From a virus: a DNA stretch of 20,710 nucleotides. Of the stretch, positions 3,006 to 19,378 are shown in pieces. Position 1 is the stretch's first letter. Each line of letters opens with the position of its first letter. The notes beneath the pieces are model-generated. The model was not told the DNA's origin, searched no databases, and was given only the letters and a program-made list of their open reading frames with translations. A program made the position numbers and the translations under genes. Location: IMG/VR virus record IMGVR_UViG_3300017770_000229, positions 1-20,710 of that record. The stretch is one strand, 5' to 3'.

Positions 3006-3884
3006 ATGTTATACGGTGTCTATCGCTACGGACAGGCTGCATTCTCTACAGCCACGTTGCACGATGGTGCATCCACCCTTGCTGCAACATCACAGGTCCA
3101 AAGTTCTGGCATACGAGTTATACAGGGTTCTGCAACCATTGGCGCAAGTGCTGGGGTTACCTCTAGCGCGTTAAAGGTTGTCGATGCAAGTAGCACGATT
3201 AATGCAAGTGCAGGCACTACAGCAAGTGCGGTAACTGTTGTTGATGCGATCTCTACAATTAGTGCAGCGGCATCGCTGACATCTTCTGCTGTAACGGTTG
3301 TTGATGCGGCATCAGCCTTTGACGCAACTGCAGGCACAACGGCCTCTGGATTACGCATTCACCAGGGGGCAAGTACTTCAAGTGCAAGCGCATCGGTTAG
3401 CACTTCAGGATTAAGAATATTACAGGGCGCATCTGCTGTATCAGCAGGCTCTAGCACTCAGGTATCGGGTTCTGCATTACTTGCAGGTAGCTCTACGATC
3501 TCTGTAGGTAGCGCACAATCAACCTCTGCTTTATTGGTTAGGCAGGGCATATCGACAATATCTGCAGGCTCATCATCTAGCATACAGGCTACCCAAGTCT
3601 TTAATGGCAATGCGGTGCTTGGATCAACTGCACAAGTTGTTACATTGGGTAACATCATTGCGGTAGGGGCTATGTCAAGCAGTACGGTAAGTTCTGCCAC
3701 TGCAAGCGGAGTTATTTTGTGGGGCGACAGCCCTGAAGTAAGCACAGATTGGGAAAATATAGCGTCAGTATCCTCTACTTGGTCTGATTCTTCACAAGGC
3801 AGCAATAGCTGGTCAGACAGCAACGCTACATCAAACAATTGGACGAATACGTCCGACAACGAAAATTTATGGGAGGCCGCTTAA
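3006..3884 (+). CDS. Repetitive tail protein: ten 20-residue repeats plus tryptophan ladder
   Basis: This is a 292-residue Ser/Thr/Ala/Val-rich protein. After 19 residues, residues 20-219 divide into ten consecutive units of exactly 20 residues with no insertions. Typical units are QGSATIGASAGVTSSALKVV and DASSTINASAGTTASAVTVV. The alternation of small and beta-branched residues suggests a beta-solenoid or beta-prism fibre shaft. The C-terminal part carries five tryptophans at residues 249, 259, 269, 279 and 289, spaced exactly ten apart in Ser/Asn/Thr/Asp-rich spacers. The gene begins one base after the previous stop and ends directly at the tail-fibre start. The last codons contain GGGAGG, which serves as the ribosome binding site of the fibre gene. 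I do not recognise a characterised family; a tail-surface or adhesion role is inferred. Confidence 0.65.
   Translation: MLYGVYRYGQAAFSTATLHDGASTLAATSQVQSSGIRVIQGSATIGASAGVTSSALKVVDASSTINASAGTTASAVTVVDAISTISAAASLTSSAVTVVDAASAFDATAGTTASGLRIHQGASTSSASASVSTSGLRILQGASAVSAGSSTQVSGSALLAGSSTISVGSAQSTSALLVRQGISTISAGSSSSIQATQVFNGNAVLGSTAQVVTLGNIIAVGAMSSSTVSSATASGVILWGDSPEVSTDWENIASVSSTWSDSSQGSNSWSDSNATSNNWTNTSDNENLWEAA
3063..3662 (+). repeat. Ten degenerate 60-base in-frame tandem repeats
   Basis: Ten units of 60 bases, each starting at a codon for Asp/Gln/Ala/Asn followed by Gly/Ala, encode residues 20-219 of the gene at 3006. The register is unbroken. The DNA copies are clearly diverged while the amino-acid pattern (position 3-4 A/S, a hydrophobic at position 6, TSSA near 13-16, hydrophobic beta strand at 17-20) is kept. 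This points to old duplication with selection on the protein shape. Confidence 0.8.
3750..3875 (+). repeat. 30-base periodic Trp codons (decapeptide ladder)
   Basis: TGG codons begin at 3750, 3780, 3810, 3840 and 3870, exactly 30 bases apart. Between them lie nine-residue spacers of the type SDSSQGSNS, SDSNATSNN and TNTSDNENL. The spacers vary in sequence but are uniformly small and polar. The run ends three residues before the protein stop. Confidence 0.8.
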
Positions 3885-8123: not shown

Positions 8124-9596
8124 ATGGCGCTTGTAGCCCTAGAATTACCTGCTGGCATCTATAACCACGGGACAGAGCTTGACGCATCTGGTCGGTGGAT
8201 AGACGGCAATTTTATACGCTGGCAGAACGGCTCTGTGCGCCCTATTGGTGGGTGGACTTTACGTAAGGCGACGGCAACGGCAACTGCGCCACGAGGCATG
8301 GTTGCGTGGATTGATCACTCTGCGGTAACACATATAGCTGTTGGTACGCACAACAAACTGTATGCGCTAAACCAAGGTTCTGCGGTCCAAGACATCACAC
8401 CAGTAGGCTTTACTGCTGGATCGGTTGATGCCCCTGCAAACTATGGTTTTGGTGGTTTAACTTACGGTAATGATCCTTATGGATCGCCAAGAGATGCCGC
8501 AGTACCAACACCAGCAACAACCTGGTCACTTGATACGTTTGGTCAGCACTTAGTTGCTTGCTCATCCTCTGATGGAAAGATATATGAGTGGCAGTTAAGT
8601 ACTTCTGCGGTTGCACAAGTCTTAAGTAATGCGCCAACAGGTAATAACGCAATAATGGTGACTGATGAGCGTTTTGTGTTCGCCTTGGCCTCTGGTGGTA
8701 ATCCACAAAAAGTAAATTGGTCAGATCGTGAAAATAACAATGTCTGGTCTGCAGCAACTACCAACCAGGCAGGTGACATAGAGTTACAGACCTCTGGTGA
8801 AATTATGTGCGGTGTGCGATGTAAGGGCTCTGCATTGATTCTCACAACATTAGATGCTCATACAGCAACTTATGCTGGACCTCCTTATGTTTACTCATTT
8901 GAGCGAGTAGGTAGTGCTTGTGGTGTAATATCTGCAAAGTGTGCGATTGCAGTTGATCAGGGTGCGTTTTGGATGGGAACAGGTAGTTTCTTCCAATATA
9001 ACGGTAACACTGTGCAAGAGATGCAGTGTGATGTCTCTGATTACGTGTTTACCGATATTAACGAGGCGCAACGATCAAAGGTATGCGCGATACATAACTC
9101 GCAGTTTGGCGAGGTTTGGTGGTTCTATCCATCAAATGACTCAAACGAGAACAACAAGTATGTTGTCTATGATTACAAGGAAGGGCATTGGAATATAGGC
9201 TCCCTTGCAAGGACAACAGGAGTCGATTTAGGCGCGTTTAGATCACCTCTATGGTTTGATCCATCTGGTAATCTTTATAACCATGAATTCGGTTATACGC
9301 ACGATTCTGCGCCCTATTTAGAGTCTGGTCCTATTGTTATGGGTAGTGGCGAGAACATCATGAAGGTAAACGAGATTATTCCTGATGAAAAGACCCAGGG
9401 AGAGGTCAGTTTAACCTTTAAAACACGATTCTATCCCAACGGTGATGAGACAAGCCACGGACCGTTTACATTAGCTAATCCTACGGGTGCAAGATTCCAA
9501 GGTAGACAAGTTCGGATGCTAATTAACGGCTCAGAAATTAATAACTGGCGCGCAGGTAATATGCGGTTAAATGTTATTGAGGGTGGTAGGCGTTGA
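8124..9596 (+). CDS. Tail nozzle / packaged-DNA stabilisation protein (P22 gp10-like)
   Basis: This is a 490-residue protein with a beta-propeller look. It begins ELPAGIYNHGTELDASGRW, then GNFIRWQNGSVRPIGGW, which is typical of nozzle proteins of P22/SU10-like phages. The middle contains repeated strand motifs (IAVGTHNKLY; VACSSSDGKIYEW; FALASGG..Q.VNWSDREN). The C-terminus has GARFQGRQVRMLI, then WRAGNMRLNVIEGGRR, the usual family ending. It would form a hexameric nozzle below the adaptor, hold the packaged DNA and anchor fibres or a needle. AAGGAA lies six bases upstream of the ATG. Its stop codon overlaps the TTG start of the next gene. Confidence 0.82.
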   Translation: MALVALELPAGIYNHGTELDASGRWIDGNFIRWQNGSVRPIGGWTLRKATATATAPRGMVAWIDHSAVTHIAVGTHNKLYALNQGSAVQDITPVGFTAGSVDAPANYGFGGLTYGNDPYGSPRDAAVPTPATTWSLDTFGQHLVACSSSDGKIYEWQLSTSAVAQVLSNAPTGNNAIMVTDERFVFALASGGNPQKVNWSDRENNNVWSAATTNQAGDIELQTSGEIMCGVRCKGSALILTTLDAHTATYAGPPYVYSFERVGSACGVISAKCAIAVDQGAFWMGTGSFFQYNGNTVQEMQCDVSDYVFTDINEAQRSKVCAIHNSQFGEVWWFYPSNDSNENNKYVVYDYKEGHWNIGSLARTTGVDLGAFRSPLWFDPSGNLYNHEFGYTHDSAPYLESGPIVMGSGENIMKVNEIIPDEKTQGEVSLTFKTRFYPNGDETSHGPFTLANPTGARFQGRQVRMLINGSEINNWRAGNMRLNVIEGGRR

Positions 9597-10228
9597 GTTC
9601 ACAGTTACCACCCCCGATTGGTAATGATTGGAAGGTTTGGGGCAAAAAGTTAGTTGACACATTGCAGCTAACGCAGTCGCAGCTAAAGTATTTTTTAACA
9701 GGTGACTCAGCTATTAACGAAGGACTACTACTGTGGAATAACACAGGGTATCCAGTTATATCTAAAGAAAACGCCTATCGGCAAATATTATTAGAGGGTG
9801 GCTGCGGTCAGTTCTATGCAACGCAAACACAAACAGCCTCTAACGCTAACACAGCTACTGCGGTTACCTTTGACAGCGCGGCAGCGGCAGATGGTCTTGC
9901 GATCGATGGTTCGGATGCGACAAAAATCAACGTCACAGAAGCCGGATTGCTAAAAGTAGACATCACAGCACAAGCAACCTCTAGCTCAAGTTACACAGGT
10001 TTTTTGTGGGTAAATGTCAACGGTACAGATGGCTATGCGGTAAAAAAATCTGTCAATAATGATGACACGATCACTCACACGGCTCTTGTTTCGGTTAGTG
10101 CTGGTCATTATTTAAAAGTTATGTATGCGGTATCAAACACAGGTTTGACGTTGCCTAACACAGCGGCATCATCGCCTATTCCAGCCATACCTGCAGTGCA
10201 AGTTGCTATTAGTCGCTGCAAACAGTAA
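9593..10228 (+). CDS. Tail protein with C1q/TNF-like jelly-roll C-terminal domain
   Basis: This 211-residue protein starts at TTG (9593), overlapping the nozzle stop as TTGA. The start is supported by the frame and by the compact N-terminus SSQLPPPIGNDWKVWGKKLV. Residues about 1-70 are helical (VDTLQLTQSQLKYFL) and could dock on the tail. Residues about 75-211 alternate beta strands: TATAVTFDSAAAADGLAI, ITAQATSSSSYTGFLWVNVN, ALVSVSAGHYLKVMY. This is the pattern of the C1q/TNF-type jelly roll found at the tips of many phage fibres. I infer a trimeric receptor-contacting or fibre-capping protein; the fold call is by pattern only. The stop overlaps the next ATG by one base. Confidence 0.6.
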   Translation: MSSQLPPPIGNDWKVWGKKLVDTLQLTQSQLKYFLTGDSAINEGLLLWNNTGYPVISKENAYRQILLEGGCGQFYATQTQTASNANTATAVTFDSAAAADGLAIDGSDATKINVTEAGLLKVDITAQATSSSSYTGFLWVNVNGTDGYAVKKSVNNDDTITHTALVSVSAGHYLKVMYAVSNTGLTLPNTAASSPIPAIPAVQVAISRCKQ

Positions 10229-10593
10229 TGAACCTCAATGATGAACTTACTCGTTGCAGACCTTGGATAGAGTCAGCACTTGAGTATTCTGGCGGCACTC
10301 ATTTATACGAAGACATCGTTCAAGGCATTGTCACTGGACGGATGCAGTTCTGGCCTGCAGAGAAGGGCTGTGCTGTAACAGAGATTATTGTATTCCCACG
10401 CAAAAAGATTTTTCACATCTTCCTAGCAGGTGGTGAGAAGGATCAGATTACCGATATGGATGACTCTGCGGTTGAGTTTGCACGGCAACAGGGCTGTACA
10501 GGCATGACAGTAGCAGGTCGTAGAGGTTGGGCAAGGGTATTAAAAGAACAAGGGTGGACAGAGGCGTTCACAACACTAGCAAAGGATATTTAA
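10228..10593 (+). CDS. Small conserved virion-region protein, possibly GNAT-like
   Basis: This is a 121-residue protein. The core reads IVQGIVTGRMQFWPAEKGCA, then EIIVFPRKKIFHIFLAGG, with AVEFARQQGCTGMTVAGRRG and W..VLKEQGW near the end. This order (Q.W.., a strand ending near HIF.AGG, then a helix, GC..., GR.GW.R.L...GW) recurs in phages just upstream of internal virion genes and looks like a reduced acetyltransferase (GNAT) fold. T7 gp13, which is also GNAT-like, occupies a comparable place. Catalysis is not shown: no clear acetyl-CoA loop Q/R-x-x-G-x-G/A is visible, so a structural or assembly role is likely. The gene is coupled to both neighbours. Confidence 0.5.
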   Translation: MNLNDELTRCRPWIESALEYSGGTHLYEDIVQGIVTGRMQFWPAEKGCAVTEIIVFPRKKIFHIFLAGGEKDQITDMDDSAVEFARQQGCTGMTVAGRRGWARVLKEQGWTEAFTTLAKDI

Positions 10594-10594
10594 T

Positions 10595-12874
10595 ATGTCA
10601 GGTGGAAAAGGCGGTAGCCAAACAACACAGGTAGAGATTCCTTCATGGATTCAGCAGCCATCAATACGGAATATGGCAAGGGCAGAGGCTCTACAAAAGG
10701 TTGGTTATCAACCATACATGGGTCCTGATGTCGCTGGATTTACTCAGCCACAACAGCAGGCAATGCAGAGTAATCTCAATGCAGCGGCTGCCTTTGGTTT
10801 AGTTGACCCCGGATTAGACGCAATGGCAGGGATGCCAGAAGCAACACCGTTGACTTATGATGCTGATGGCCTACCAAGTCGTACAGGTTTACAAGGCTAC
10901 TCTTCTTACCCTATGTATCAAAAGGCGGTAGATGACTACGAGGCTGCCAACCCTGGTCAAGCGCGTCAATACAACAACTTATTTGTAAATCCCCAAAGTG
11001 GTCTTGGTGGTACTACTGGCACAGGCATGATGGGTGGTGGTATTAACAGTGGTGGGCAAAACAACTCAGGCGCTGGTAGTCAGACAGGTGATCCAGGTGA
11101 TGTCGGTCAATTTACGGCATTTGATCCTACTAATTACTCAATATCTGATGCAAATCCATATGGTGTTAGTTTTACAGCGCAAGCACCTGATATGACAGGT
11201 TACATCACTGCTGATCAATTAGATCAACGTCTAAGTGCAATGCAACCTACTGCACCGCAAGATATGTCTGGTTTTGCAACAACTGAGCAACTAAACAATG
11301 CGCTTGCTAATTTACCGACCTATCAGCCACAAGATTTATCTGGCTATGCGCGCACAACTGACTTGTATGATGACAGCCAATTGCGTCAGGATATTAATTC
11401 AAGATTTAGCAATGTAAATGCTTTTGATCCAAGTGGATTACAAGCACAAATTACGGCTAATCAGCAGGGTCTTGCAAACTTACCTGCTGCACAAGCACCT
11501 GACTTATCAGGCTACGCAACGACATCAGCACTTAGTGATGCGATAAGCGGCATCAATACATACGATGATACTCAGCTACGGCAGGATATAAACAGCCGAT
11601 TTAGTAACATACCGCAGTTTGATGCCAGTGGTTTACAGGCACAGATAACCGCAAACCAACAGGGTCTAGCTAATCTGCCAACGGTCTCTGCACCTGATCT
11701 ATCAGGTTATGCTACAACTAATGACTTACAACAAGCCATTCAGGGCTTACCAACGCCTCAAATGCCAGACCTTTCAGGATACGCAACTACTAATGATTTG
11801 ACGCAAGCAATTGCAGGGTTACCACCTGCTCAAATGCCTGATTTGTCGGGTTACGCAACAACCAATGATTTGACATCGGCTATTTCAGGTATTGATATTC
11901 CAAGCTACACACCCCCTGATTTGTCGGGTTATGCAACCACTAATGATTTAACAAGTGCGATCTCTGGCATACCTTCCTATCAAGCGCCTGACTTATCAGG
12001 ATATGCAACAACTGGTGATTTAACATCGGCAATCTCTGGAATACCGCAGTTTGACCCAACAAGCCTACAAAATCAGATTACTGCTAACCAAACAGCAATC
12101 GGTAACGTTCCTCAATATAACGATCAAGGCTTACTTGCTGCAATACAAGCAAATCAAAACGCCATATCAGGCATTAACACATACGATGACACGCAACTTA
12201 GGCAAGACATTAACAATAGGTTTAGTAACTTCAATCCAAATGTTGATTTGTCTAATTATGCAACCAATGCGAGTGTTAACACGCTGGTTAATAACTTACC
12301 GACAGCACAGCCTCAAGATTTGTCTAACTATGTGACGAACGAGCAATTAACCCAAGGTTTACAGAATCTGCCCACACCTACAGCACCTGATTTGTCTGGT
12401 TATGCAACAACACAAGACTTGAACACCGCTATTGGAGGGTTACCTACATATCAAGCACCTGATTTAAGTAATTATGCAACACGGTCTGATTTAGCAAACA
12501 TTAATACTTATGATGACACGCAGTTGCGTCAAGACATTAATAACAGGTTTGACAATTTTACACCTAATGTTGACTTGTCTAATTACGTGACCAACAACCA
12601 ATTACAACAAGGGTTAAGCTCTTTCACTCCTTACAATGATGCAGCGTTACGTGAAGATATCAACGCACGGTTTGGTAACATTTCTACTTTTGACCCAAGC
12701 GGATTACAAGCGCAAATTCTCGCATTACAAAATGCTAACAACGTAGTCGCACCGTTAACTCCACAAACAATCGCACCGCAACAGGCTCAACAAATGGGTC
12801 CTGCTGCACAAACAATGAGTGCTTACACCATGCCTGCAGCGCAAGGTCTAAGCTTTGCTCCAAAAGGATTCTAA
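10595..12874 (+). CDS. Repeat-rich virion protein with GGKGG / PY.GPDVAGFT N-terminal module
   Basis: This is a 759-residue protein. The first ~70 residues (SGGKGGSQTTQ, then a PYMGPDVAGFTQPQQQAM segment and AAAAFGL) match the N-terminus of a common marine-phage virion protein. A Gly/Ser/Asn-rich linker follows. Residues about 197-715 consist of two interleaved repeat families: DLSGYATTNDL units, often 24 residues apart with about 14 copies including degenerate ones, and YDDTQLRQDINSRF units (five). The repeats suggest a long trimeric coiled or beta fibre rod or flexible spacer. The C-terminus is Gln/Ala/Pro-rich. In related phages the N-terminal module seems joined to what is here the next gene, so the pair may work as one unit. 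AT..TAATATG spacing places the ATG one base after the preceding stop. Confidence 0.6.
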   Translation: MSGGKGGSQTTQVEIPSWIQQPSIRNMARAEALQKVGYQPYMGPDVAGFTQPQQQAMQSNLNAAAAFGLVDPGLDAMAGMPEATPLTYDADGLPSRTGLQGYSSYPMYQKAVDDYEAANPGQARQYNNLFVNPQSGLGGTTGTGMMGGGINSGGQNNSGAGSQTGDPGDVGQFTAFDPTNYSISDANPYGVSFTAQAPDMTGYITADQLDQRLSAMQPTAPQDMSGFATTEQLNNALANLPTYQPQDLSGYARTTDLYDDSQLRQDINSRFSNVNAFDPSGLQAQITANQQGLANLPAAQAPDLSGYATTSALSDAISGINTYDDTQLRQDINSRFSNIPQFDASGLQAQITANQQGLANLPTVSAPDLSGYATTNDLQQAIQGLPTPQMPDLSGYATTNDLTQAIAGLPPAQMPDLSGYATTNDLTSAISGIDIPSYTPPDLSGYATTNDLTSAISGIPSYQAPDLSGYATTGDLTSAISGIPQFDPTSLQNQITANQTAIGNVPQYNDQGLLAAIQANQNAISGINTYDDTQLRQDINNRFSNFNPNVDLSNYATNASVNTLVNNLPTAQPQDLSNYVTNEQLTQGLQNLPTPTAPDLSGYATTQDLNTAIGGLPTYQAPDLSNYATRSDLANINTYDDTQLRQDINNRFDNFTPNVDLSNYVTNNQLQQGLSSFTPYNDAALREDINARFGNISTFDPSGLQAQILALQNANNVVAPLTPQTIAPQQAQQMGPAAQTMSAYTMPAAQGLSFAPKGF
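11183..12740 (+). repeat. Two interleaved protein-coding repeat families
   Basis: DLSGYATT-type units begin near 11183 and run to about 12600. A second unit, YDDTQLRQDIN-like, begins at 11366, 11561, 12182, 12509 and 12632. The first four copies of the second unit differ at many third-codon positions yet encode almost identical peptides, so the repeat is kept at protein level. Some stretches (for example TTNDLTSAISGI) occur two or three times almost unchanged in protein. Confidence 0.78.
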
Positions 12875-12876
12875 TT

Positions 12877-13782
12877 ATGGCTAGTGGCGCTAAATCAACT
12901 GTTCAACCAGCAATGAGCCCAAACATGGGTAATAACCCATCTTTATACTCTGATCCTAATATGGGTGGTGGTGTACCTCCACAACAGCCTTTACCCCCTG
13001 TAACTGGACCACAACCTCCAATGACAGGTCCAGCGCCTACAGTAGTGACTGATCCAGTACAAAGACCACCAAATGTATTCTCAAGTGCTGCTCAAGGGTT
13101 AAATACTGCAATGGCAGGTGCGCGGAACGAGATGATGTACAACCCGATGACATCTAACGTCACTGCGGACAGATTATCTAATGCTAACCTCTCTGCTTAC
13201 GCTAATCCTTATCAAAATCAGGTAATTGATAACACGCTGAATGATTTGAACAAGGCGCGGCAAATGCAAATGAACCAGGTAGGGGCTAACGCCTCTGCAA
13301 GTGGCGCATTCGGTGGTTCACGCCAAGCATTACGTGAAGCTGAGACCAACACGGGTTATTTTGATCAGGCAGCCAGAACAGCAGCTAATTTACGACTGCA
13401 AGGCTTTAGAGATGTGCAGAACATGGCGCAGGCTGATATTAACAACAAACTTAGGGCTGATATGTCTAACCAAGGTTCAGCTTTAGCAGGATCACAACAA
13501 CGATTAGCTGCAGGTAATCAGTTAGCCAACCTATCAAACTTAGGCTTTGGTATGGGTCAGCAGCTACAAGGTAACCTGGCACAAGATGGCGCAATGAAGC
13601 AGGGTATTAACCAGCTATTAATTGATGCGGTTAAGAATCAGTTCACCCAGCGTTCACAAGCACCATTCCAAGGTATTGGATTGCTCACTCAGGCACTTGG
13701 TGCATCGCCTGTACCTCAGACATCAACAACCAGCAAACAGCCTGGATTGTTTGATTATCTAACGCTAGGAGCATCTTTGTAA
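12877..13782 (+). CDS. Virion protein with NPYQNQVID / GAFGGSRQA module (candidate internal protein)
   Basis: This is a 301-residue protein. The first ~70 residues are Pro/Gly/Met-rich and disordered-looking (QPLPPVTGPQPPMTGPAP). Residues about 105-200 read AYANPYQNQVIDNTLNDLNK, QMNQVGANASASGAFGGSRQ, then a long Ala/Gln/Asn-rich helix (AARTAANLRLQGFRDVQN). I recognise the NPY.Q.VID / A.ASGAFGGSR signature from large marine-phage virion proteins, where it is preceded by the module found here in the upstream gene. The helices could form an internal-core or ejection assembly. CAAAAGGATT precedes the ATG by a good spacing. The stop overlaps the next ATG by one base. Confidence 0.6.
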   Translation: MASGAKSTVQPAMSPNMGNNPSLYSDPNMGGGVPPQQPLPPVTGPQPPMTGPAPTVVTDPVQRPPNVFSSAAQGLNTAMAGARNEMMYNPMTSNVTADRLSNANLSAYANPYQNQVIDNTLNDLNKARQMQMNQVGANASASGAFGGSRQALREAETNTGYFDQAARTAANLRLQGFRDVQNMAQADINNKLRADMSNQGSALAGSQQRLAAGNQLANLSNLGFGMGQQLQGNLAQDGAMKQGINQLLIDAVKNQFTQRSQAPFQGIGLLTQALGASPVPQTSTTSKQPGLFDYLTLGASL

Positions 13783-14195
13783 TGTACGATCCTGCTAATG
13801 ATGAAGAGGAGAAGAACAGGGCAATCGCGCAGAAAATGTTAATTGCCAATGAGCTTAAAAAGCTACAAGCAAATGACATAGCATCAATTACGCAAATGGC
13901 TCCGACAATTCCAAATGTAACGCCTGATGTAGCAATACCTCCTCCACCACAAACGATGATGGATCAGATGAGACCCTACATGAATAGCATGGGTCAGGCC
14001 GCACAGAATTACACACAGGGGTTTATTGCACCCAATGTTGACCCTGTGCAGCGTGGGGGTGGTCCTATGCGACCTACCTCTATTGCGATGGCTCCCTACG
14101 GCCAAGGTTTAGTTAATCGTATGGGTGAGGATACAGATAGTGAGAAGCAAGACGTAATGATGAAAATTATCAAAGCTATGATGGGAGGCGCGTAA
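13782..14195 (+). CDS. Small Met/Pro-rich protein of unknown function, virion region
   Basis: This is a 137-residue protein. It has a charged N-terminal helix (DEEEKNRAIAQKMLIANELK), a Pro/Met/Gln-rich middle (TPDVAIPPPPQTMMDQMRPY) and a C-terminal Met-rich helix (DVMMKIIKAMMGG). No family recognised. It is coupled by one-base overlaps to genes on both sides, both candidate internal virion proteins. A role as a small structural partner or assembly aid is therefore plausible but unproven. GGGAGGCG near its own 3' end serves the next gene. Confidence 0.5.
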   Translation: MYDPANDEEEKNRAIAQKMLIANELKKLQANDIASITQMAPTIPNVTPDVAIPPPPQTMMDQMRPYMNSMGQAAQNYTQGFIAPNVDPVQRGGGPMRPTSIAMAPYGQGLVNRMGEDTDSEKQDVMMKIIKAMMGGA

Positions 14196-15256
14196 TGCAA
14201 CAGAAAGAAGAACAAATGGGCTTGTTAGCGCGGCTCGGCAAGGGCATACAAAATTTGCGTTCTGATCCAGAGAGAATGGCTAGATTGCAAATGAGTTTTA
14301 ACACCATGCGATTAAATCCTGATCCTAATATTGCGGCAAGTGCTGCCAATACGATCAAGATGGCACAACAGAAAAGACAAAGCGAAATGGATGTAAATGC
14401 GACTATCGAATTTTTACGAAAACAAGCTGCAACAAGTCCTTTGGCTGCAAGAACTTTGCAAGCAATTCAAGCAAATCCTTCTTTGATGAAAGAATATATA
14501 AAAGCGTATGGAGTTGAACTTATAAAGGAGAAAAAATTACCACAAGTACCTGCTGAAATAACAACATTTAACGCTATGGCTGAAAATCTAACTCCTGAAG
14601 AAATTGCAAAAGCTCGCAAAATTAAATTAGGTTTAACGCCTCGTGAAGCAAATCAACAAGTATTTTTGATAGGTGAAGTTCCACACGTTGTAGATCGTGC
14701 GACTAAAGCTTTAGTGCCTCTTCAAATCGACGGAGTAAATATCACTGCCCAGGATGTAGCAAAAAACAAAAACATAATATCATCGTCAGCAGCAATATCT
14801 GAGGCAGACACTGCAAAAACAATAGATGCTCCAAAAGCAGCTCGTGCCGGTAACTTAATGTTAGATACTTTAAATAAAATGCAAAACCAATATCGCAATG
14901 CTGTATCAAGTAGAACTGGCGGTATAGAAGGTAAATTGCCTGTAATTACAGAGCAACAGGCTTTAGGACAATCTTTTATTGATCAAGTTTCAGGTAAGAC
15001 CTTTATGGAAGCTTACCAATCTTTAAAAGGTGGTGGACAAATTACCGAAATCGAATCAGAAAAAGCAGAAGCTGCTTTAACGCGATTGCAACAACGGGAA
15101 ATGTCAGACGAAGAATATTTTAAAGCATTGCAAGAGTTACAAGAAATTGTAATAAAAAATGTACAAAGGTATGAAAAGTTAATACCTGACAGTGCAAAAT
15201 CTAATTCGTCACAAGAAGAAATAATCGATCAATTGGTAAATAAATATGCCAACTAA
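14195..15256 (+). CDS. Candidate DNA-ejection / internal virion protein
   Basis: This is a 353-residue, mostly helical, Lys/Gln/Ala-rich protein. Residues about 250-320 read a GQSFIDQVSGKTFMEAYQSL block, then KGGGQITEIESEKAEAALTR and LQQREMSDEEYFKALQELQE. LKGGGQIT.IE..KA..A..RL is a conserved signature of phage internal or injection proteins and similar virion components. Upstream residues include short basic amphipathic stretches (LLARLGKGIQNLRSDPERMA). It probably travels in the head and leaves with the DNA. The start uses GGGAGGCGCGTA upstream. From about base 14390 the DNA becomes markedly AT-rich. The 3' end overlaps the next gene by eleven bases. Confidence 0.62.
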   Translation: MQQKEEQMGLLARLGKGIQNLRSDPERMARLQMSFNTMRLNPDPNIAASAANTIKMAQQKRQSEMDVNATIEFLRKQAATSPLAARTLQAIQANPSLMKEYIKAYGVELIKEKKLPQVPAEITTFNAMAENLTPEEIAKARKIKLGLTPREANQQVFLIGEVPHVVDRATKALVPLQIDGVNITAQDVAKNKNIISSSAAISEADTAKTIDAPKAARAGNLMLDTLNKMQNQYRNAVSSRTGGIEGKLPVITEQQALGQSFIDQVSGKTFMEAYQSLKGGGQITEIESEKAEAALTRLQQREMSDEEYFKALQELQEIVIKNVQRYEKLIPDSAKSNSSQEEIIDQLVNKYAN

Positions 15257-17222
15257 AAAAGAACTAGAATTAGCACTGATAAATGCTGATAAACAAGGTG
15301 ACGTTGAGGCTGCAAGATTACTTGCAAACGCTTTAAAAAATCAATCTGTCAATAACGTAGAAAAAGCAAATGTAGAGCAAGTGTCAACTGTAAATCCTAT
15401 GAATCCTGTTTTGGGGTTTGGGATGGAGGCAATACAAGGACTTAATCGTGGTGCATACGGAGTGCTTGATTTAGCTGCAACCGTACCAAATGCATTGCTA
15501 GAGTTATCTGGGTCAGATGCGCGTATTCCAAAAATAAATGAACAACCATTTATGAATCAAAAGTTTATGGATGAAGGACTAGGCAGGGATATCGCGCGAT
15601 CAAGTGGTGAAGTTAGTGCATTAGCGCTAGGTGGTGGGGCTTTGTTGCGTAAGGGCGCAGAACAGTTACCTAAGTTAGCCTCCAATGCCGAAAGCATAGG
15701 TTCTGGAGTTTTGCGGCAACTTGCAAACACAACGCCAAAACAAGATGTTGTGATGGGCAGTACGGCTGCTGGGATGGGCGTTATAGGCGGTGAAGTTGGA
15801 GAAAATTTAGGAGGTCCAACTGGTAGAATGATAGGTCAGACAGTAGGAGAATTTATTACTCCATACCCAAGCGCGAACATCGTAAAATCAAATAGTCCAA
15901 ATGAAGTTTCTTTAAAAAACACATTTGATAGATTCAATGTTGACAGTTTTCCAGCGCAATTAAGCAACGATCCTTATAAAATTTCAGAAATGGATTATGT
16001 AAGTCAATTAACGCCTGGATCAAAGGTAATTACTCCTAAATTAATGAGACAAAATGAGCAAGCAGGCCAAGCTGTTGATGATGCTTTAAACACGATAACT
16101 ACAGGAGATGCACCTAGCACATATCAAAATGCAATGCAAAATGCTGCACAAAACATAATTAAAAAACGCGAACAAGCAAGGGATGCTGTTGCAGGTCCAT
16201 TATATAGGCAAGCATTTAACGAAGGTGGCTTGACAAATTTGCAAGGTGTTCGTAACACCCTAAAAGGGTTTATAAAAGATCATCCAAATAGCGGTGAAGT
16301 AGCTAAATCGTCTGCAAAAGTGTTAAAAATGTTAGCACCAAAAAAAGTTGCTGGAGAAAATGTAGAGCCTAATTTAGAGCAATTGCAAAATACAAAACTT
16401 GAAATTGATAATATGATTAATAGGCCAATTTTAAGTGATAACGCGCTTGCCAAAACTACGCAAGCTAAGTTATTAGAAATACAACAATCTCTGTTGCGTG
16501 AAATGGATGTTGCAAGTCCTAAATTCAAACAAGCAAGAGAAACATTCCAACAACTTTCACCTCCAGTAAATGAAGCGAAAAATTCTATAATTGGGAAAAT
16601 ATCTGAACTAAAAACTCCACAAATGAAAAACGTATTACGAAATATATTTGATCCAGGAGAAACCAATTTAGCAACAATGCAAAAAAACAAAAAAATGATT
16701 GTTGAAGCTGATCCTGAAGCATGGAATTTATTGATTCGTGCAGAGGTGGAAAAGCGATTAAGCTCAATCAAGCCAGTTAAAAGCGCTGTTGTACAAAATG
16801 AGCCTAGTCAATTAAGTAATGCAATTTTTGGCAACAAAAAACAAGAAGCTCAACTTTTAGCGGCAATGGACAAAGATCAAAGAGAATTGTTCCGAGACTT
16901 AAAAGTGATGTTGGATCAAGCAAGCCTTGGGAGATTGACAGGATCACAAACAGCTACTAGAACAGAAATCGCACAAAGTCTTAAAGGTGGATTTGTGCAA
17001 GCAATTCGTGATTTTGTGAGCAGTCCAGTAGATAAAACTGTCGGTATAGGAAGTGACGCAATGTTCGATAAGCGAGTTCGCACGTTAGCCATCGCATTGA
17101 CTGATGTTAATTACCGGCCATTGTTAAAATCTTCCTTAGAAAAAGATTCTGGTATTGCTGTTAATAGGCTTTTGTATTTCATAGAAGCTGAACTTATGAA
17201 TCAAGATTTAGCAACAGAATAA
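15246..17222 (+). CDS. Large candidate internal virion / ejection protein
   Basis: This is a 658-residue protein. The N-terminus (KKELELALINADKQGDVEAA) is a short helical module seen at the start of many phage virion proteins. Residues 59-122 contain GMEAIQGLNRG, NALLELSGSDARIP and MDEGLGRDIARSSGE, matching the C-terminal part of the polyvalent protein at 150. A glycine-rich hydrophobic stretch (about 125-200, with VVMGSTAAGMGVIGGEVG) could cross a membrane. Residues about 220-658 are long helices with little repetition. I infer it is ejected into or across the cell envelope with the genome. There is no good Shine-Dalgarno; the start overlaps the previous stop by eleven bases and is probably translation-coupled. 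The coding DNA is very AT-rich, with A-runs near 16681-16697 that are prone to slippage or sequencing error, although the frame is intact. Confidence 0.6.
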   Translation: MPTKKELELALINADKQGDVEAARLLANALKNQSVNNVEKANVEQVSTVNPMNPVLGFGMEAIQGLNRGAYGVLDLAATVPNALLELSGSDARIPKINEQPFMNQKFMDEGLGRDIARSSGEVSALALGGGALLRKGAEQLPKLASNAESIGSGVLRQLANTTPKQDVVMGSTAAGMGVIGGEVGENLGGPTGRMIGQTVGEFITPYPSANIVKSNSPNEVSLKNTFDRFNVDSFPAQLSNDPYKISEMDYVSQLTPGSKVITPKLMRQNEQAGQAVDDALNTITTGDAPSTYQNAMQNAAQNIIKKREQARDAVAGPLYRQAFNEGGLTNLQGVRNTLKGFIKDHPNSGEVAKSSAKVLKMLAPKKVAGENVEPNLEQLQNTKLEIDNMINRPILSDNALAKTTQAKLLEIQQSLLREMDVASPKFKQARETFQQLSPPVNEAKNSIIGKISELKTPQMKNVLRNIFDPGETNLATMQKNKKMIVEADPEAWNLLIRAEVEKRLSSIKPVKSAVVQNEPSQLSNAIFGNKKQEAQLLAAMDKDQRELFRDLKVMLDQASLGRLTGSQTATRTEIAQSLKGGFVQAIRDFVSSPVDKTVGIGSDAMFDKRVRTLAIALTDVNYRPLLKSSLEKDSGIAVNRLLYFIEAELMNQDLATE

Positions 17223-17290: not shown

Positions 17291-19378
17291 ATGGAACTCA
17301 AAAAGCTTACTGAAGACGATATCAAGTCAATTGCAGCAGATGCCGTAGAAAACGCGGAGGATTTTGTTAATTCTGAAATCGTATCTGATCGACTAAAAGC
17401 ACAACGATACTACGATGGAGAGGTAGATATCGGTGAGGAGGATGGTCGCTCACAGGTCGTATCGACCAAGATAAGGGACAAGATTCGGGCGATAAAGCCA
17501 AGCCTTATGCGCGTATTTTTAAGCACTGACAAGCCTGTAGAGTTCGCCCCGATGGGACGCGAAGACGCACAGTTTGCAGAGCAGGCTACAAAGTATGTCA
17601 ATTACAAGTTTAATCAATTGCATGGCTATAGCGTTCTATCTGATGTGTTTTCAGACTCATTGCTAAAGAAGTGTGGTGTTGTTAAGTGCTATTGGAATAT
17701 AGAAAAAGAAAGCGAGACATTTGACCACCAAGACCTTCCTGATGAAGAGTTCTCGATGATTGTCAATGATCCTCGTGTTGAGGTGATTGAGCACACTGAG
17801 ACTGTCGAGATAGAGATAGATCAGATGGGTATGGAGATGCAACGCACAAGCCATAACGTCAAGGTATCAGTTACTGAAGAATACGGTGATTTAGTTATCG
17901 AATCTGTCCCCCCAGAGGAGTTCTTTATCTCATCAGATGCTACAGGTTTAGATGATGCTTACGCTGTTGTTCACAAGCGTGAGGTCAGGGTAGGTGACCT
18001 GGTTGCAATGGGTTATGACTTTGAGGTTGTATCTGAGCTAACAGGTGATGATACGGACAACTTTGCTGATGAGGAAAGATTTGAGCGTCAGAACTTTAGT
18101 TTTGATGATGATGAGCAGCCCTTAGACCCAACCATGCGTAAGGTCATTGTATCTGAGGTCTACATGAAGATTGATGCTGATGGCACTGGTATTCCTGTCA
18201 TGCACAAGATACTCCTTGGTGGTAGTGGTGATGAGTTGTTAGACGTTGAGCCTTGGGGTGATCTTCCTTTTGCCTTATTTCAGCACGACCCAGAACCGCA
18301 TACTTGGGTTGGGAATTCACTTGCAGATATTCTCTTTCAAGAGCAAGACGCAGCTACAGCAATGCTCCGTGGGGTCCTTGATAACGTGGCACTAACCAAC
18401 AATCCTCGAACAGAAATTGTTGAGGGTATGGTTAATATTGATGACTTCCTAAACAACGAAATTGGTGGTGTTGTTCGGACAAAAGCTGGCGGTTCTGTGC
18501 AACCTTTGACCGTACCATTTGTTGCAGGACAGACTTTGTCTGCTGTTGAGTATTTTGACAACCAAATTGACCATAAAACAGGCGTATCTGCCGCATCTTC
18601 TGGTCTTGATCCCAATGCACTTAGAAACACCACAGCAACGGCTGTTAATGCCACCGTACAGGGCGCTGCAAGTCAAATAGAGGTAATGGCAAGGAATCTA
18701 GCTGAAGGCGGTGTATCGCAGTTATTTAAGCTTATGATGAAGTTGACCATTGAGAACTGTGACAAGACAGAAATGATGGCAATTGCTGGTAGTGAATATA
18801 TGCCTGTTGACCCTCGTTCTTGGAACAAGGAGATGGATGTCACGGTCAATGTTGGCCTTGGAACTGGCAGAGAGGGTGAGCGTTTAGCAGCCCTACAGCA
18901 AGCACTTGATATGCAGGTTCAAATATTCAGTAACTATGGCATCAACAATGGTCTCGTAGGCATGACAGAGATACGCAACACCCTAGCCGATATGTTGGCC
19001 CTGGGTGGTCTTAGAAACATTAATCGTTACTTCAAGCCAATGTCGATGGAGCAAGAGATGATGCTCCAGCAGCAGGCACAAGCGCAAGAAGGTCAGGAGC
19101 CTATGGATCAGGCGGCTGCCTACCTGCAGGCAGAGCAACTTAAAGCGCAAGCAAAGTCTCAGACGGACATGGCAAAACTACAAATTGACGCACAAAAGGC
19201 ACTTGCAAAAGATGATCGAGAGCGTGATCAGATGGACCAAGATTTGCTTGTTAAGGCGGCAGAAATATACGGCAAGTACCAGACCAGTGTTGATGTAGCA
19301 GGGGTGAAGCAGGCACAAGCGATGCCTAGATACCCAGCGGCCTCACCTGTCCAAGCTGTTACTGGCGGTAGATTTTGA
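17291..19378 (+). CDS. Portal protein (P22-like)
   Basis: This is a 695-residue portal. The N-terminus reads DRLKAQRYYDGEVDIGEEDG and RSQVVSTKIRDKIRAIKPSL, matching the clip/wing start of P22-type portals. The middle includes PWGDLPFALFQHDPEPHTW and a SLADILFQEQDAATAMLRG helix, also typical. Residues 590-660 are a Gln/Ala-rich coiled coil (the barrel), as in P22. The dodecamer forms the DNA entry channel and is the nucleus of prohead assembly with the scaffold. Length fits the P22 family. It starts at ATG 17291 after a 68-base gap, and its TGA overlaps the TTG of the next gene. Confidence 0.88.
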   Translation: MELKKLTEDDIKSIAADAVENAEDFVNSEIVSDRLKAQRYYDGEVDIGEEDGRSQVVSTKIRDKIRAIKPSLMRVFLSTDKPVEFAPMGREDAQFAEQATKYVNYKFNQLHGYSVLSDVFSDSLLKKCGVVKCYWNIEKESETFDHQDLPDEEFSMIVNDPRVEVIEHTETVEIEIDQMGMEMQRTSHNVKVSVTEEYGDLVIESVPPEEFFISSDATGLDDAYAVVHKREVRVGDLVAMGYDFEVVSELTGDDTDNFADEERFERQNFSFDDDEQPLDPTMRKVIVSEVYMKIDADGTGIPVMHKILLGGSGDELLDVEPWGDLPFALFQHDPEPHTWVGNSLADILFQEQDAATAMLRGVLDNVALTNNPRTEIVEGMVNIDDFLNNEIGGVVRTKAGGSVQPLTVPFVAGQTLSAVEYFDNQIDHKTGVSAASSGLDPNALRNTTATAVNATVQGAASQIEVMARNLAEGGVSQLFKLMMKLTIENCDKTEMMAIAGSEYMPVDPRSWNKEMDVTVNVGLGTGREGERLAALQQALDMQVQIFSNYGINNGLVGMTEIRNTLADMLALGGLRNINRYFKPMSMEQEMMLQQQAQAQEGQEPMDQAAAYLQAEQLKAQAKSQTDMAKLQIDAQKALAKDDRERDQMDQDLLVKAAEIYGKYQTSVDVAGVKQAQAMPRYPAASPVQAVTGGRF

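Follow-up and report, generated by a model that had tools for sequence, protein, structure and literature searches.

A PHROG 4287 virion protein in two-gene form, with a repeat array in its first gene, in an IMG/VR virus

Two adjoining genes in the IMG/VR virus record IMGVR_UViG_3300017770_000229 raise a key question: are they the separated halves of what is one virion protein in other phages, and, if so, did one gene split or did two genes fuse? The window analyzed here is a stretch of 20,710 nucleotides (positions 1 to 20,710 of that record), in which gene 1 (10595..12874, 759 aa) and gene 2 (12877..13782, 301 aa) lie on the plus strand. The original prediction, made from the letters alone, took the pair for a marine virion protein broken in two and expanded by a long repeat rod. 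We find that it is a known protein family (PHROG 4287), here in a two-gene form with repeats. The explanation that we favor, and hold to be reasonably probable, is that the genes encode a two-part ejection protein derived from a split single virion protein, with later growth of the repeats.

Layout of the gene pair and its modules

Both open reading frames (ORFs) were present at these coordinates, on the same strand and adjoining. The gene 1 protein (MSGGKGGSQTTQVEIPSWIQQ...QPYMGPDVAGFTQ) begins with the N module (aa 1-72, 10595..10810), which carries the GGKGG...EIPSWIQQ...PYMGPDVAGFT start, and continues with a GMP...GYSSxPxY...FV block (~ aa 74-131, 10814..10987; motif counts and alignment A2) and then with ~ 520 residues of repeats (~ aa 199-720, 11189..12754). 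The gene 2 protein has a Pro-rich start, followed by ANPYQNQVIDNTL (aa 109-121) and GAFGGSR (aa 143-149, 13303-13323); NPYQNQVID and GAFGGSR belong to the C module (aa 97-188, 13165..13440; alignments A1 and A3). The assignment of the GGKGG...PYMGPDVAGFT start to gene 1 and of the NPYQNQVID...GAFGGSR part to gene 2 was thus confirmed in the ORFs. The further claim, that over 500 repeat residues and a stop/start lie between the modules, stood as regards the repeats and their number, but these are located inside gene 1, upstream of its stop codon, and not in intergenic sequence.

The coding of gene 1 is real, because its codons differ from those of close relatives mostly by synonymous changes, the repeats included. 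For codons 1-165, the synonymous/nonsynonymous differences were 22/3 to locus L100, 19/1 to L098 and 5/2 to L101, and for codons 166-400 they were 13/3 to L098, 36/9 to L101 and 0/0 to L100. The ORF also scored 106 bits with the N profile, a profile with gene 1 itself among its members. Gene 2 matched phrog_4287, labeled 'DNA ejection protein', with an E value of 1.5e-6 (aa 86-288 on profile positions 92-289 of 392), and this family was matched in none of 14 control genomes. Gene 1 gave no phrog_4287 match at E 0.1, while the N module of split proteins aligned with the N-termini of fused proteins at E 8.7e-11 (hhalign, alignment A2 versus A7, 61 columns, probability 97). Neither gene had a Pfam match at E 0.1, so that no C-terminal Peptidase_S74 domain was detected in them; an NCBIfam search gave nothing useful for either gene, and a search for solved-structure relatives of the N module, the C module or gene 1 found none that was credible.

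Fused and split forms and the direction of change

The statement of the original prediction that other phages carry the two modules in a single protein was borne out. In a survey of 190 loci with both profiles, 180 carried at least one module: 107 split, 42 fused, 19 N only and 12 C only, or 80, 40, 14 and 12, respectively, in the non-redundant set (no identical module sequence). The window itself (L006) is entered as C only in these counts, and neither module was recognized in L008 (end of gene 2 only), L017, the P22-type L178 and L183-L189. Comparison of domain order across relatives showed the same N-then-C order in the fused proteins, where phrog_4287 spans both modules (residues 4-279 of L057 on profile positions 9-306; 17 of the 24 A7 members); in phiM5 gene 27 the match covers residues 3-390 of 392.

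Are the modules nevertheless usually separate genes? The profile searches answer this in two ways. The N-profile scan returned 61/80 split, 19/80 N-only and 0/80 fused loci from a seed of five proteins, all of them split, while the C-profile scan returned 37/80 split, 34/80 fused and 9/80 C-only loci; after redundancy was removed, the C-module scan held 35 split loci among 76, 32 fused and 9 without a recognized N module. The gene 2 scan covered 10 loci, with 7 split, 2 C only and the tenth (L008) holding the end of gene 2 only. Since the scans were seeded from window-like proteins and were cut to the top 80 of at least 492 relatives in one case and of 363 in the other, the fused and split counts are not abundances. 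Among the 19 N-only loci, the gene 1 ORF runs off the contig or locus end in 9 and stops at most 1.5 kb from the end in 10.

The split is neither peculiar to the window phage nor tied to the repeats: it occurs in 80 non-redundant loci, 4 of which have repeats. Among the named phage records examined, the split form was found only in Octadecabacter Antarctic DB virus 2; the fused form was found in Microcystis MJing1, Sinorhizobium phiM5, Ochrobactrum OH, Caulobacter GB2A, Chlorobiaceae CV-1-33 and uncultured Manatee Spring phages. The GYSS block was present in 78 of 94 non-redundant split or N-only gene 1 ORFs and in 0/40 fused ones (this count, like those of the Cys domain, repeats, ribosome-binding motifs and S74 starts below, is a regular-expression count). 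No description of this split was found in the open-access full text searched with fission and split terms. The available portion of PMC10386132, in which LUZ24-like podoviruses are followed into marine metagenomes, places most internal virion protein genes outside its comparison.

Another important question is how the second half is translated. In the window, the junction (12864..12876) consists of AAGGA (12864-12868), located eight bases upstream of the gene 2 ATG (12877), the stop codon TAA (12872-12874) and two bases. Close spacing is the rule, as 74/80 non-redundant split pairs overlap or are at most 13 nt apart, 34 of them with a one-base overlap. A Shine-Dalgarno (SD)-like motif precedes gene 2 in 67/80 non-redundant split loci, compared with 3-24/80 in five control windows located 60-180 nt further upstream. 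The frame offset between gene 1 and gene 2 takes all three values among the 80 split pairs (52, 17 and 11), and recoding as a general mechanism is thus disfavored. In fused proteins, 14-104 aa separate the N and C modules, which places the break within a short linker.

To orient the change, a tree was built from an independent marker, the nozzle/hub gene, which lies three genes upstream of gene 1. Clustering reduced the 158 hub-bearing loci to 93 rows, and PaP3 served as the root. The 47 split rows and the 9 N-only rows together formed a single clade nested among fused rows (Shimodaira-Hasegawa-like approximate likelihood ratio test support 96), which corresponds to one change. Removal of PaP3, of Caulobacter or of six long branches gave supports of 97, 97 and 99, respectively, and still one change, and the N-module tree likewise needed one (support 84). 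Both modules were detected in one gene by hidden Markov models in the outgroups Caulobacter GB2A, ct7L0027 and Planktothrix Pag-Yong1; PaP3 orf16 is a single gene of 314 aa matching phrog_4287 at E 3.3e-10. The locus therefore displays what is expected of a gene-fission pair, namely, colinear halves, fused outgroups and the split as a derived clade (one change, or two with L197). Read from these trees, the split is the derived state, and the direction is fission, not fusion. The fission is old and common to a large clade of probably short-tailed phages.

Some results run counter to this simple history. The tree of the short C module needs six changes, of which well-supported branches force only one. 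HTVC023P, HTVC027P, DSL-LC04 and L016 were labeled fused by hand, as each has a single gene (of fitting size in the first three) in which the C module is recognized and the N module is not; CRP-902, weak for both modules (E ~ 0.002), was likewise labeled by hand. The hand labels on the hub tree are L016, L190-L192 and L194-L196 (fused) and L193 ('fused?'). Finally, the split locus L197 is placed immediately outside a set of four fused rows (support 86), raising the number of changes to two; it may reflect a second fission or the misplacement of a long branch. This pair (L197:5173-6573) is located on a 34.6-kb contig of a Gammaproteobacteria metagenome-assembled genome (MED581).

The repeat array and other additions

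Did the repeats arise together with the split? By pattern counts, gene 1 contains 14 units of the DLSGYATTNDLTSAISGI type, 5 of YDDTQLRQDIN and 5 of LQAQITANQ, and the spacing of the DLSGYATTNDLTSAISGI units is 24 aa in 8/13 cases. At the DNA level, Tandem Repeats Finder detected a single array of 2.4 copies of 72 bp, indicating that most copies have diverged. A heptad coiled-coil rod was considered and rejected: hydrophobic periodicity at 3.5 and 7 did not exceed that of shuffles and was strongest near 4.04, so the name 'rod' is unsupported.

The repeats were seen in the window, L007/L105, L098, L100, L102-L104, L106, L107 and L110, and in L101 after an internal stop. On the hub tree, these carriers collapse to four rows (window, L098, L102 and L103) in one clade with support 92; gene 1 of near neighbors has no repeats (L010, 144 aa; L124, 269 aa). 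Because the repeats are limited to 4/80 non-redundant split loci and to one small clade, the fission preceded them, and they are a younger, local elaboration. The proposal of fission with repeat expansion thus holds in that both occurred, as the hub tree and the length change in L098 demonstrate, but as separate events, fission first.

Gene 1 of L098 is 96.8% identical to that of the window over the first 1197 bases, and two in-frame, repeat-bounded blocks, of 72 and 327 bases, are missing from it (end matches 44/60 and 45/60). The array therefore changes length by recombination between copies. In L101 (L101:3589-5643), codon 208 of the gene 1 homolog is an in-frame TAG, close to where the repeats begin and ahead of most of them; beyond the TAG the frame remains open, and its codon differences from the window number 61 synonymous and 14 nonsynonymous. 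L008 and L099 belong to one 33.5-kb contig (IMGVR_UViG_3300025102_000132) that is near-identical to the window in these genes, begins in gene 2 residue 182 and ends in gene 1 residue 231; its opening inside the pair is perhaps an assembly break at the repeats.

Additions of other kinds are found across the split loci. Gene 1 proteins range from 122 aa to the 1250 aa of L007, many having only 122-160 aa, and gene 2 proteins range from 226 to 1144 aa in 65 complete cases (the longest in L174). A Cys-containing C-terminal domain of gene 1, CVVATHAV...KWWGEAIRRGYRxLG, occurs in 8/80 non-redundant split loci (L019, L021, L025, L054, L061, L062, L064 and L088); in the five that were scanned (L021, L025, L054, L061 and L088), no Pfam family exceeded its cut-off within this domain. 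In L021 (L021:3939-5420), a LysM domain (PF01476, E 3.2e-13) precedes the Cys-containing domain. Gene 2 homologs of L010-L015 and L091 (L091:5755-7191) have Q/A/N-rich repeats of their own (QFGASAANTAGLANQ...).

Neighborhood, probable function and known counterparts

What could the two halves do? They are embedded in a cassette on the plus strand whose order is P22-like barring extra genes: nozzle, needle-position gene, gp14-position gene, genes 1 and 2, a small gene, gp20-position gene and gp16-position gene. The nozzle/hub protein (8124..9596) matches phrog_3287 (E 3e-92), PDB 9nwi chain Y (E 2.4e-17) and 8zkm 'nozzle' (E 6.9e-5). The gene at the position of the P22 gp26 needle (9593..10228) has weak BclA matches (E 0.12-0.18), and a knob-like C-terminus is suspected in its product. 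The gene at the gp14 position (10228..10593) matches phrog_22172, a family with no assigned function (E 4e-17); the corresponding genes in L001, L002 and L181 are annotated as acetyltransferase. Downstream, the gene at the position of the ejection protein gp20 (14195..15256) matches phrog_2534 'released from the phage upon host infection' (E 2.3e-5), and P22 gp20 matches another part of this family (E 3e-112). The gp16-position gene (15246..17222), placed by its position, matches phrog_5880, also with no assigned function (E 9e-12), and the portal protein (17291..19378) is recognized by Pfam SU10_portal (E 6e-189). Elsewhere, the window encodes a 614-aa protein (150-1994) with a sub-threshold ART-PolyVal match (E 4.5e-4, 21.4 bits versus a cut-off of 31.2) and a 292-aa A/S/T-rich repetitive protein (3006-3884) with STISAGSS-like units.

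The position in this cassette, the PHROG labels and one virion-proteome record (phiM5 gene 27, 'detected in phage particle proteome') point to an ejection role, which is also favored by the LysM domain in gene 1 of L021. Other observations weigh against it. P22 gp7, tried as a homolog, was rejected (hhalign E 0.037-0.37, probability < 2), and the hub profile missed P22's hub. AlphaFold models were weak: a fused relative reached a confidence of 58 and gene 1 one of 37, too low for its model to be used. The model of the fused relative consists entirely of helices, long ones flanking GAFGGSR, and a fold search with it was empty (best E 0.99). Four Manatee Spring relatives are named Myoviridae by their depositors. 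The S74 chaperone domain, known from trimeric fibers, ends 7/44 A8 members (fused relatives) and also gene 2 of the Octadecabacter phage (among six proteins picked as S74-like), and its start motif occurs in 4/65 complete split gene 2 proteins.

It is because of these S74 counts in fused relatives and split gene 2 proteins that a trimeric external fiber or needle, with gene 1 as the anchored shaft, gene 2 as its partner or tip and the repeats setting the length, stays in play. Depositor names such as 'tail spike protein/chaperone', 'tail fiber domain-containing protein' and 'putative tailspike protein' and the low-complexity composition of the gene 1 repeats (A/T/N/Q/L) agree with a fiber. The place of the genes inside the ejection cassette does not, nor do the missing Pfam matches of both window genes, the absence of a receptor-binding domain recognized by Pfam at the end of gene 1 and the helical, though weak, model of the fused protein. 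We thus favor the ejection protein and regard the fiber as doubtful, if a serious contender. Drift is a further candidate: the split and the repeats would be tolerated changes without functional gain, as could be suggested by the variable copy number among close relatives, the TAG of L101 and the many short gene 1 proteins. Against it, the repeats change mostly synonymously (13/3 in L098; 36/9 and 61/14 in L101), and gene 1 has been elaborated repeatedly and separately, so that we find it unlikely.

The two remaining explanations fare worse. Originally separate modules that were fused several times would agree with 0/80 fused loci in the scan nearest to the window, though its seeds were all split; the hub tree, with a root resting partly on long-branched outgroups, nests split within fused with one change, and the distant outgroups have single genes, which makes this history very improbable. 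Programmed frameshifting across the stop/start, by which one long protein would still be made, could draw on the gene 2 frame, open for 46 codons upstream of its start (347 versus 301), and on the shared frame offset of 52/80 pairs. However, no canonical slippery heptamer was seen by eye ahead of the stop, most pairs provide a separate SD-like site for gene 2, and all three kinds of offset occur; this we judge to be extremely improbable.

For the two-part ejection protein, the following course is proposed. The ancestor would have been one virion protein of P22-/LUZ24-type phages (PHROG 4287, labeled DNA ejection protein), which underwent fission once, or at most a few times, in the linker between the N-terminal and the helical GAFGGSR modules. 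The halves have remained adjacent, each is made from its own closely coupled start site, and within the virion they probably still bind one another. In the most likely role, both would be packaged as ejection (pilot) proteins, exit together with the DNA and contribute to a conduit through the cell envelope. Once the genes were separate, the free C-terminus of gene 1 may have offered a place for adding sequence; the array of 24-residue repeats arose there and shifts in length through in-frame recombination between copies, and the result could be an extended arm, flexible or oligomeric, whose length is specific to the lineage. A bolder version, which we hold to be rather unlikely, is that the freed N-terminal half became an exchangeable adaptor of the DNA-injection conduit, a conserved virion anchor with lineage-specific arms (repeats of variable length, a wall-binding LysM domain or the Cys domain) fitted to the host envelope and with a reach set by recombination in the repeat array. 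A fission whose direction can be traced, which arose once or nearly so and which has fused relatives among present-day phages predicts physical contact between two proteins that lack other annotation. It also marks a large phage clade, and the gene 1 length series (122 to 1250 aa) is natural material for probing this part of the injection cassette.

Comparison with known systems places the pair as follows. The single-gene form of PHROG 4287 (phiM5 gene 27, with PaP3 orf16 as a distant member) has the same modules in the same order and, like the window pair, follows the nozzle gene at a distance of a few genes, with annotated internal virion proteins coming next in phiM5; it differs in being one gene instead of two, and the fused relatives lack the GYSS block and show no such repeat array, both of which are present in the window. 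P22 gp7, an ejection protein of phrog_598, occupies the analogous place in the order hub, gp26, gp14, gp7, gp20, gp16, a match by analogy only, since P22's hub escaped the hub profile; it is a single gene of another PHROG without detected sequence homology to the window pair. Octadecabacter Antarctic DB virus 2, a podovirus with a predicted P22-type neck according to the available part of PMC9239159, has the same two-gene split in the adjacent gp17 and gp18, with neighbors as in the window, but gp17 has 217 aa without repeats and gp18 ends in S74, unlike the window genes. In the metagenomic contig L007 (IMGVR_UViG_3300025276_000315), both the split and the repeat types are as in the window, with a gene 1 that is 491 aa longer and a gene 2 of 381 aa.

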